NCBI GenBank assembly: GCA_001858525.1 | Contig: LAPX01000007.1 | Span: 248,001-312,000 of the forward strand | DNA length: 64,000 nucleotides | DNA from: Vampirovibrio chlorellavorus | GTDB lineage: Bacteria > Cyanobacteriota > Vampirovibrionia > Vampirovibrionales > Vampirovibrionaceae | Direction: 5' to 3' | Part shown: positions 61,073 to 64,000 of the stretch, piece after piece | Position numbering within the stretch: position 1 is the stretch's first letter | How the letters are laid out: every line of letters starts with the position of its first letter | The notes under the pieces: generated by a model | Database searches by the model: none | Told to the model about the DNA's origin: nothing | Seen by the model: only the letters and a program-made list of their open reading frames with translations | Made by a program: the position numbers and the translations under genes

Positions 61073-61702
61073 ATGGAACTCACTCAGCTAAAGCCTAAAT
61101 CAGTCCGACATCCTAAAACCGGCAAAACACAAGGCTTTACCCTGGCCGAATTACTCATTTCGCTGGCCATCTTAGGGGTCATCGCCACTTTTACCATCCC
61201 CAAAATCCTCAGCGCCCAGCAAGCCAGCGCCAACAATGCCAAAGCCAAAGAAGTGGCCGCCATGATCTCTGCGGCTTTCCAGCAGGCCAAGCTGGATGGG
61301 ACGATTACAGCAACGACATACTCCCGGGATTTGATTCCCTACCTGAATTATTTAAAGTTAGACACGAGTGGCACAGTCATCGACACTCTCCCCGGTTTTG
61401 CCTCAGCCAGCTGTTCCGTCGCCACACCCTGTGTCTACCTGCACAACGGCGGGGTCCTCTGGTTTCACGATACGGCGTTTGGAGGCACATCCAATTTAAA
61501 TGTCATTGAGTTTGCCTTTGATCCCGACCCCATCAACAATACTACAGCCACGGCAGATGGCCCCCTGAAAGCGGTGCAGTTCGGCGTTTACTACAACGGT
61601 TTTATTACCAGTCGAGGAAAATTTAAGTCAGGCTCAGTAAATCATATTGCAAGCTTAGGTCTGAACAGTGCGTTTGATCCCTCCTGGTTTAGCTGGAATT
61701 AG
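61073..61702 (+). CDS. Type IV pilin-like/pseudopilin protein 3 (WFSW family)
   Basis: Prepilin-like protein of 209 residues. A 21-residue basic leader (MELTQLKPKSVRHPKTGKTQ then G) precedes FTLAELLISLAILGVIATF. Globular features: Cys pair CSVATPC, YLHNGGVLWFHD, FAFDPDP in place of FDPDG, GPLKAVQFGVYYNGFITS and C-terminal DPSWFSWN. Its leader and 5' region are almost identical to those of gene 4 but with only two ACTC units. GGAG lies 13 bases before this ATG. An ATG 20 bases upstream, at 61053, is out of frame and stops shortly after the ACTC units. Confidence 0.88.
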   Translation: MELTQLKPKSVRHPKTGKTQGFTLAELLISLAILGVIATFTIPKILSAQQASANNAKAKEVAAMISAAFQQAKLDGTITATTYSRDLIPYLNYLKLDTSGTVIDTLPGFASASCSVATPCVYLHNGGVLWFHDTAFGGTSNLNVIEFAFDPDPINNTTATADGPLKAVQFGVYYNGFITSRGKFKSGSVNHIASLGLNSAFDPSWFSWN

Positions 61703-61815: not shown

Positions 61816-62562
61816 ATGGAGCCAAGAAATGAAACATGGAACTCACTCACTCTCTCACTCACTCTCTCACTCACTCACTCACTCACTCAGCTAAAGCCTA
61901 AATCAGTCCGACATCCTAAAACCGGCAAAACACAAGGCTTTACCCTGGCCGAATTACTCATTTCGCTGGCTATTTTGGGCATGATTGCCACCTTCACAAT
62001 CCCCAAAATCCTCAGTAACCAGCAAGCCAATGGTTACAACAGCAACGCTAAGCAAGTAGCCTCAATGGTTTCTGCAATCTTTCTCAATGAATATAACACT
62101 CAAGGGGGAGAAAGCTGGATTGACCAACAAGACGCCACATACGGCTGGGGCAGCGGATTAAGTTCTCTGTTACCCTCCAAAATGAACTATTCAAAATATC
62201 TGAATAATAACGAAGTCATGACCTATCCGCCTGGGGGAGCTATCGCTGTTTATGCCGGCATGAACACCTGTGGTGTGGGTCAAATGCGCTGCTATCAGCT
62301 CCACAATGGCGGTGTTTTATGGTGGGTTACCTATGGCTACGTTTGGGATGGACAATATGCTCAAATGTTCTATTTTGATCCAGACGGCACAGGACCGGCA
62401 GAAAGTGTCCCCTTTTATTTGGTAGCCAGTAAACGCAGCAAATGGAGCGATCCGAATGGTCAAAAGTACGCTCCAGGTAGGGTCATGACTCAGAAAGAAT
62501 TGGGGCATATCAGCTGGGGAGGCTATGGATCTGCCAACCCAAGTTGGTTCAGCTGGAATTAA
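61816..62562 (+). CDS. Pseudopilin protein 4 with tetranucleotide tract in its leader
   Basis: Prepilin-like protein of 248 residues in the present repeat state. A 41-residue leader of Ser/Leu/Thr repeats (SLTLSLTLSLTHSLT) from the ACTC tract is followed by TGKTQG/FTLAELLISLAILGMIATF. Globular features are kept: two Cys (CGVGQMRC), QLHNGGVLWW, FDPDG and a C-terminal NPSWFSWN. The prepilin cut would remove the whole variable leader. Three ATGs lie in three frames just upstream (61816, 61829, 61836). The reading frame joined now is that of 61816, while the best ribosome site (GGAG, 7 bases) serves 61829, which is out of frame. Confidence 0.82.
   Translation: MEPRNETWNSLTLSLTLSLTHSLTQLKPKSVRHPKTGKTQGFTLAELLISLAILGMIATFTIPKILSNQQANGYNSNAKQVASMVSAIFLNEYNTQGGESWIDQQDATYGWGSGLSSLLPSKMNYSKYLNNNEVMTYPPGGAIAVYAGMNTCGVGQMRCYQLHNGGVLWWVTYGYVWDGQYAQMFYFDPDGTGPAESVPFYLVASKRSKWSDPNGQKYAPGRVMTQKELGHISWGGYGSANPSWFSWN
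61841..61888 (+). repeat. ACTC-type tetranucleotide tract, 12 units
   Basis: Twelve consecutive 4-base units: ACTC in ten, TCTC in the fourth and seventh. The paralogue at 61073 has two units at the same place. Ten extra units equal 40 bases, which changes the reading frame. Confidence 0.92.
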
Positions 62563-62668: not shown

Positions 62669-62776
62669 TTGACTCATCCATTTGGGGATTCTGATAATAT
62701 ATGAATAGTCTAACCATTCCTTTCTTTCTTACGTAAAATTCAAAAGGCCCTTTTTCCGTAGGGCCTTTTTTTTTGC
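62669..62776 (+). ncRNA. Candidate small RNA with own promoter and terminator
   Basis: TTGACT (62669-62674), 18 bases and GATAAT (62693-62698) form a good sigma-70 promoter on the plus strand. A hairpin AAAAGGCCCT (62742-62751)/AGGGCCTTTT (62760-62769) with a T-tract ends about 40 bases later. No gene lies between, and the next gene is on the other strand. The predicted transcript is about 70 bases with a pyrimidine-rich 5' half (CCATTCCTTTCTTTC) that could pair with ribosome-binding sites. Confidence 0.5.
62742..62776. terminator. Bidirectional rho-independent terminator
   Basis: A perfect 10-bp stem (62742-62751 with 62760-62769), with T-runs on both strands (plus TTTTTTTT, minus TTTTGAATTTT). 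It separates the plus-strand side from the minus-strand histidine kinase. Confidence 0.85.
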
Positions 62777-62852: not shown

Positions 62853-64000
62853 TTAAACGGACAAGGCGCTGGTGGCAGTGCCCTCACCGGGCAATTCAGA
62901 CCCCGGCTCGCCCAAAGGAATCCGGAAGCCAAAGGTACTGCCCACCCCCACTTCGCTTTTCACAAACACTTCCCCGCCGTGGTGCTTTTCAATGGCCACT
63001 TTCACCAAATGCAAGCCCAAGCCGGTGCCTTTGACCGTGTGCACTTTGTTTTCCACCCGATAAAACCGATCGAAGAGATGGGGCAAATGCTCTTCCGCGA
63101 TGCCACTACCAGTATCCTGCACCGACACTTCCAAAGCATCCCCAATTTCGGTCACTTCCGCCCGTACCCGAATGCGCCCACCCTCATCGGTGTATTTAAT
63201 GGCATTGCTCAGCAAGTTGCGCAGCACCCGCTCAATGCTATCGCTGTTAATGTACAACTTGGGCAAGCCGGATTCGATGGCGGTGCTGAGGGTAATCTTC
63301 TTCTGATCGGCCAATACCTTCACCGATTGCACAGTCAGGTTGATCACCGGACTCATGTCGGCCAACTCCCGCTCCAGCACCACGGTGCCTTCATCCAGTC
63401 GGGAGAAATCCAGAATATCGTTCACCAGTTTTTTCAGACGATCGGTTTCCGTGTTGATGGTCTCGATAAACTCATCGTAGGTTTCCGTGTCTAAATCTTT
63501 GCCGTGATTGTAGATGGTATCCACGTAACTTTTAATGGTGGTCACCGGCGTGCGCAACTCGTGGGACACGTTGGAAATGAAGCTGGTCTTCATCTTGTCC
63601 ACTTCGGTTTCCTTGGTCACATCGTGCATAATCAGCACAAAGCCCAGCATGTCCCCATCGGCGTCCTGAATGGGGGACAACATAATTTTCAGAGTGGTGC
63701 CCGGCACTTCCAGCTTATGGATAAACAAGGGGGGCAAGGCGGCTTGCTTGTTGGTCAGTATCTTTTCAAAATCCGTGATAATGGGCTCAAAGCAGCGAGT
63801 CCCATTTTCGGTTGTATAGTCCTTCAGGTTGCTTCCCATGGCCCATTCGCTGGATTTATAACCCAGCATATCGCAAGCGGCATCGTTGATAATGGCCACC
63901 TTGGCCTGCATATCACACACCACCACCCCATCAGCAATACTCAGAAGAATGGCCTTCAGCTTGTTGCGCTCAAAAGTAATGGTTTCCAGATTCTGATCTT
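62853..64000 (-). CDS. PAS-domain sensor histidine kinase (5' end cut by window)
   Basis: C-terminal part of a membrane sensor kinase; the frame runs off the window edge, so the sensor and any HAMP domain are outside. Visible order: FERNKLKAILLSIADGVVVC (start of a PAS domain), PAS core (VAIINDAACDMLGYKSSEWA), HisKA with the phosphorylated His in SNVSHELRTPVTTIK, and HATPase with N, G1 (VQDTGSGIAEEH), F and G2 boxes (GTGLGLHLVKVAIEKHHG). Closest in style to VicK/PhoR/NblS kinases. No response regulator gene is adjacent within the window. Confidence 0.93.
   Translation of the reverse strand, partial: DQNLETITFERNKLKAILLSIADGVVVCDMQAKVAIINDAACDMLGYKSSEWAMGSNLKDYTTENGTRCFEPIITDFEKILTNKQAALPPLFIHKLEVPGTTLKIMLSPIQDADGDMLGFVLIMHDVTKETEVDKMKTSFISNVSHELRTPVTTIKSYVDTIYNHGKDLDTETYDEFIETINTETDRLKKLVNDILDFSRLDEGTVVLERELADMSPVINLTVQSVKVLADQKKITLSTAIESGLPKLYINSDSIERVLRNLLSNAIKYTDEGGRIRVRAEVTEIGDALEVSVQDTGSGIAEEHLPHLFDRFYRVENKVHTVKGTGLGLHLVKVAIEKHHGGEVFVKSEVGVGSTFGFRIPLGEPGSELPGEGTATSALSV

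Follow-up and report, generated by a model that had tools for sequence, protein, structure and literature searches.

Does the intergenic DNA between two pseudopilin genes and a convergent histidine kinase gene carry a gene for an RNA of its own, and what might such an RNA do? The locus lies at 62669-62776 of the window, which is the whole stretch of 64,000 nucleotides that was analysed. The original prediction had placed there a promoter and a terminator with no gene between them, a small RNA of about 70 nt, and an antisense gene behind it. The features of the region are as follows.

61073-61702, plus strand: pseudopilin 1 (N_methyl), a neighbour outside the element
61816-62562, plus strand: pseudopilin 2 (N_methyl), a neighbour outside the element
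62669-62674, plus strand: -35-like hexamer TTGACT, moderately conserved in the same genus, degenerate elsewhere
62692-62700, plus strand: extended -10 TGA-TAATAT, overlapping the first-noted GATAAT at 62693-62698
62708-62774, plus strand: predicted small RNA of about 67 nt, its start placed by the -10 spacing and its end by the T-run
62708-62733, plus strand: unpaired C/U-rich conserved segment GTCTAACCATTCCTTTCTTTCTTACG, supported by 19-mer exactness and unpaired probability
62712-62726, plus strand: 15-nt core AACCATTCCTTTCTT, without variation in alignments A1 and A2
62742-62774, plus strand: intrinsic terminator, 10-pair stem and T-run; the stem sequence diverges and its pairing is kept in relatives
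62853-63926, minus strand: PAS-HisKA-HATPase histidine kinase, a convergent neighbour that runs off the window

The predicted parts were all present in the window. TTGACT-N18-GATAAT spanned 62669-62698, the 10-pair hairpin was followed by its T-run, and the histidine kinase gene lay on the minus strand, ending at 62853. No ORF was found between promoter and terminator in the window, where the core contained no ATG and had stops around it. An antisense micro-ORF (ATGGTTAGAC...) was rejected, since its length, judged by eye, varied among relatives. A consensus scan of 4 kb gave 6 promoter-like sites where 3.9 were expected, and for terminator-like sites the count was 8 and the expectation 5.1, so by such counts alone the pair is near chance and proves little. 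Among the sites listed in that scan, 62669-62698 was the top-scoring promoter and the hairpin at 62742-62774 had the longest stem. Furthermore, folding of the 70-nt stretch gave a z of -4.1, and the fold of 62705-62774 contained the terminator hairpin only, with no 5' stem-loop. The element stands far above chance because it is conserved in relatives, and not because of its consensus matches.

Conservation in relatives had been proposed as a check, and it was borne out: the element is present in 12 of the order's 18 genomes, and 112 of the 382 class genomes give a strong match. Against 39 genomes, the intergenic stretch showed 94% identity in two genomes of the same genus and 83% and 78% in two more. 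The more distant matches covered the middle only: another genus gave 89% over 62688-62751, and another family about 90%, over 62692-62734 alone. With up to 2 mismatches allowed, GTCTAACCATTCCTTTCTTTC matched once in each of the 12 order genomes, with 0 for the controls; it had no match in G009, G012 and four genomes of family f3. The G006 match was an mRNA leader and not the sRNA, which was found elsewhere in that genome, so that the count of order genomes bearing the sRNA stays at 12. In G013, a member of family f3, two direct repeats (L275:1100-1180 and 2320-2400) flank a pilin-like gene and contain a hairpin and TCTAACCTCCTTTCTTT, a form of the core shorter by 2 nt.

Within the class, the 16-mer TAACCATTCCTTTCTT (up to 1 mismatch) matched in 151 of 382 genomes; the exact matches with readable loci had the full layout, and the 1-mismatch loci examined lay mostly within genes. 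A covariance model built from 32 sequences matched 136 of 382 genomes at E ≤0.1, some of the counted genomes being in the model. The strong matches (best E ≤1.9e-5) were those of the 112 genomes, from 29 genera and 7 families. The other 24 genomes, with weak matches (best E 2.2e-4 to 0.09), were set aside; 20 such stretches were examined, proved mostly unrelated or only partly related, and were not counted. No strong match was obtained in 270 of the 382 genomes, among them those of families f3, f4, f5, f7, f8 and f9 and of many genera of f6. In genomes without the sRNA, loci L259, L261, L271 and L274 have AATTCCTTTCTTTA just before the terminator in the 3'UTR of a gene for a HEAT-like protein, perhaps a 3'UTR-borne substitute. 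In genus g34 (L258, L263, L264 and L266), an element GATAGTTTTGCATACTTGACTTACGCGG with a terminator has like flanks and another core; these genomes are without the exact core, and the element is possibly a paralogue with a swapped seed.

A search of 386 genomes drawn from the phylum gave 52 matches, every one with the 19-mer GTCTAACCATTCCTTTCTT exact; 203 of these genomes belong to other classes, and they gave no match. Named genomes gave at least 116 exact 19-mer loci, mostly of Candidatus Gastranaerophilales; the other named carriers among the matches listed were Vampirovibrionales, Vampirovibrio sp. and Melainabacteria records. NCBI places both Vampirovibrionales and Candidatus Gastranaerophilales in Candidatus Melainabacteria. 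By eye, 115 of the 116 named loci listed had the full layout. L128, named Acetobacterium, lacked the layout and was taken as a chance match. A contig titled 'uncultured Clostridia bacterium' (L119) bears a typical Gastranaerophilales-type sRNA and probably belongs to a mis-named genome.

The conserved columns also corrected the promoter. Unconserved promoter bases had been named beforehand as evidence against the RNA; TG-N-TA-NNN-T was without variation in all 12 order members. GATAAT is present as claimed, but these columns place an extended -10 two bases to its right. This motif was found in 12/12 order members against 14% in shuffles, and in 108 of the 116 named loci listed against 16%. It ends 7 bases before G62708, which is therefore the likely start, as judged from promoter spacing, of an RNA of about 67 nt. 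The -10 of Gastranaerophilales is shifted upstream by about 7 bases relative to the window's order, and the RNA there probably begins GTTAATAGTC, whereas the start in Vampirovibrionales is probably near GTCTAACC.

A terminator stood behind the core in 12/12 order members (0.3 in shuffles) and in 114 of the 115 named loci listed with at least 55 nt downstream (2.2 in shuffles), L165 being left out because its downstream sequence is too short. Across relatives, 91.3% of the stem cells were paired, and 20 cells with a double change were counted against 5.0 in shuffles; slid versions of the structure were 26-59% paired, a comparison biased towards the unslid version by the drawing of the structure from a single member. 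The unpaired probability of the 15-nt core had a mean of 0.96 and a minimum of 0.71 in 114 named loci listed, and a mean of 0.95 and a minimum of 0.54 in the 12 order members. Thus the order of promoter, core and terminator was constant while the stem sequence varied, and the predicted RNA length ranged over 54-98 nt. The conserved promoter, core and terminator agree with the prediction of a gene for a small RNA, some 70 nt long, that has signals of its own, and we regard a stand-alone gene for an RNA at 62669-62776 as almost certain.

The neighbouring genes bear on whether this gene is free-standing, although neighbour families were assigned by Pfam for the window only and by eye elsewhere. 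The largest cluster of neighbour genes covered 40 of 127 loci, and no cluster spanned the whole set. A histidine kinase is the convergent neighbour in G000, G001, G003, G004, G010 and G016. In the window's order, a CHASE2-GGDEF gene lies upstream in several genomes, and the pilins are inserted only in some (G000 and G004). The link to pilins suggested by position fails in G003, G006 and G007, where the pseudopilins are not beside the sRNA and the CHASE2-GGDEF gene stands immediately upstream instead; by predicted pairing, the two pseudopilins ranked 55 and 58 of 60 window genes. The changing neighbours point to a free-standing gene and remove the pilin link. As a separate observation, pseudopilin 2 (61816-61900) has a CTCA/CTCT repeat right after its native ATG (61836), which puts that start out of frame, and its reading frame is open only from the upstream ATG at 61816; these features suggest a pilin gene that is phase-variable through slippage.

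Two explanations would do without an independent gene. The element could be a mere bidirectional terminator for the convergent pilin and histidine kinase genes, with a promoter-like sequence by chance; the window hairpin is indeed T-rich on both flanks and folds on both strands. However, the highest conservation falls in the unpaired core and the extended -10 and not in the hairpin, and the element is kept amid quite different neighbours, so that this reading is already contradicted and we give it hardly any weight. The RNA could also be processed from the 3'UTR of an upstream gene, as 89-141 bp separate the end of the upstream CHASE2-GGDEF gene from the element in G003, G006 and G007. Such an origin is very unlikely, because the extended -10 is conserved at a fixed spacing, and in other genomes, such as G005, G008 and G010, the upstream genes differ or point away. 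An RNA with its own promoter and terminator amid varying neighbours, as seen at the sequence level, and with a conserved accessible seed shares these features with trans-acting sRNAs.

In the proposed mechanism, RNA polymerase would start at the extended -10 promoter and stop at the intrinsic terminator, and the product, going by its architecture, would have GUCUAACCAUUCCUUUCUU... as its open 5' segment and end in the terminator hairpin. The open segment probably pairs with ribosome-binding sites rich in purines (AAGAAAGGAAU...) on several mRNAs, which would block their translation. In 652 gene starts near sRNA loci, the commonest ribosome-site words were AAAGGA, AAGGAA and AGGAAT, the complement of AUUCCUUU; the predicted ability of the C/U-rich 5' half to pair with AAGGA-type sites is thus upheld. 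The core also has letters in common with the 16S tail, which was recovered with a shorter word in 4 of 8 genomes (a variable-gap word gave none). The tail of G000 is CACCTCCTTTCTAAGG, with TCCTTTCT common to tail and core, and UCCUUUCU is common to both in four genomes.

Two long complements were located at ribosome sites. In G006, whose own sRNA has a slightly changed sequence, an 18-nt perfect complement of that sRNA (L022:3106-3126) lies just upstream of a YfdX-family gene, and in G306 the 16-mer complement AAGAAAGGAATGGTTA (L103:1542-1557) precedes the ATG of a portal-like prophage gene by 6 bases. No recurrence of either was found among orthologues. YfdX was rejected as a general target: the examined sequence of the G000, G002 and G004 homologues has no such site, and a homologue is missing from 14 of the order's 18 genomes. 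The 11-mer GAAAGGAATGG had about 36 extra exact matches in 40 genomes, compared with 18 for the control word, of which only a handful were at gene starts and none were orthologous. The longest core matches in the 652 gene starts were not clearly above shuffles, and the threshold of at most 2 equally good shuffles in 40 was reached by just 2 of the 60 window genes, which is about chance. SLH-protein targets, considered by analogy with Yfr1, were rejected: at 30 gene starts the core had no advantage over shuffled versions of itself, 51 and 9 out of 100 of which paired as well. Some of these starts had been set by a crude rule, and at least 3 of the 30 look wrong in protein or start (L396, L401 and L412).

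The element also occurs in phage sequence. The 40-kb IMG/VR contig L224 (record G585) carries a copy with its own terminator at L224:2150-2226, which precedes a terminase large subunit gene with two ORFs between; its promoter has TATAAT at the window's -10 spacing, before GTC. In a further stretch of G585, the ORFs are phage-like by eye. A second copy in genome SIG29 (L178:1956-2040) follows a terminase large subunit gene at a distance of 122 bp and has a tRNA on its other side, in what is likely a prophage remnant; it has an unrelated promoter (ATGGCT...AGCCAT palindrome) and a different terminator. With the G306 portal site, the phage connections number three, too few to build on.

These results leave room for other functions of a real RNA. 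The core could be a protein-binding site, the RNA titrating or carrying an RNA-binding protein with no mRNA pairing. Its 19 nt are without any change, and such invariance exceeds what base pairing alone usually needs; the complements do not recur and the SLH and window tests were negative, and protein binding is therefore a serious rival. We nevertheless consider it unlikely, as the core is the exact complement of the clade's commonest ribosome sites and both complements of 16-18 nt are located at ribosome sites. Still more doubtful is a lineage-wide translation regulator that mimics the 16S 3' tail through UCCUUUCU in the 15-nt core and has been adopted by phages, next to their packaging genes, to steer the switch to late genes, the portal gene among them. 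A phage-related regulator, which phages carry or answer at their packaging genes and whose host copy serves the phages or works against them, would fit the copies beside the terminase genes in G585 and SIG29 and the G306 portal-like gene, whose ribosome site is perfectly complementary to the core. It is highly improbable, however, with only three cases and a host gene that is single-copy, stably kept and usually away from phage genes. We therefore favour a stand-alone, trans-acting sRNA of part of the Melainabacteria class whose open core likely pairs with ribosome-binding sites, with a probability of roughly 0.65; the masking of ribosome sites as its mechanism is slightly less sure, though probable. 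A core identical across many non-photosynthetic cyanobacterial relatives and phage suggests that the candidate is probably an important, so far undescribed regulator. In a mostly uncultured class, an invariant RNA core offers a concrete handle on post-transcriptional control, and the copies next to phage terminase genes make the sharing of an sRNA by host and phage open to test.

The candidate was compared with known sRNAs. In Rfam 15, only tRNA reached the cut-off in the window and in eight loci, and the best score of a permissive search was 29.4 against a cut-off of 50 bits; no sRNA from Melainabacteria, Gastranaerophilales or Vampirovibrio was found described in the open-licence PMC literature. 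RsaE/RoxS, LhrC and mmgR (suhB) are C/U-rich sRNAs that mask ribosome sites. The candidate shares with them an open C/U-rich segment and a terminator, but their motifs and lineages are different, and as identities they were rejected with scores far below the Rfam cut-offs (26.0 of 79 bits, 17.4 of 110 and 26.9 of 41, respectively). Yfr10/Yfr2 (PMC6778093) are likewise sRNAs spread across a lineage, in which a short motif stays invariant amid varying surroundings, but their motif and structure are different; the Yfr10 match in Rfam was a chance one (19.8 bits against a cut-off of 43). The closest likeness drawn is to Yfr1, which PMC2190773 presents as a short RNA of 54-69 nt with the motif ACUCCUCACAC between two stem-loops. 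Both RNAs are short, both carry an unpaired C/U-rich motif that is perfectly conserved, and both end in a terminator; Yfr1 is nearly universal in its lineage, the sister to the one studied here. The core here, however, is AACCAUUCCUUUCUU at the 5' end; ACUCCUCACAC is absent from the window element and is not the aligned core in A1 or A2, and the 6-10 bp 5' stem-loop before the motif is absent from the fold of 62705-62774, whereas a 3' intrinsic terminator, as in Yfr1, is present. The likeness seen is one of architecture, and the candidate sRNA may be a natural counterpart to Yfr1 of photosynthetic cyanobacteria.
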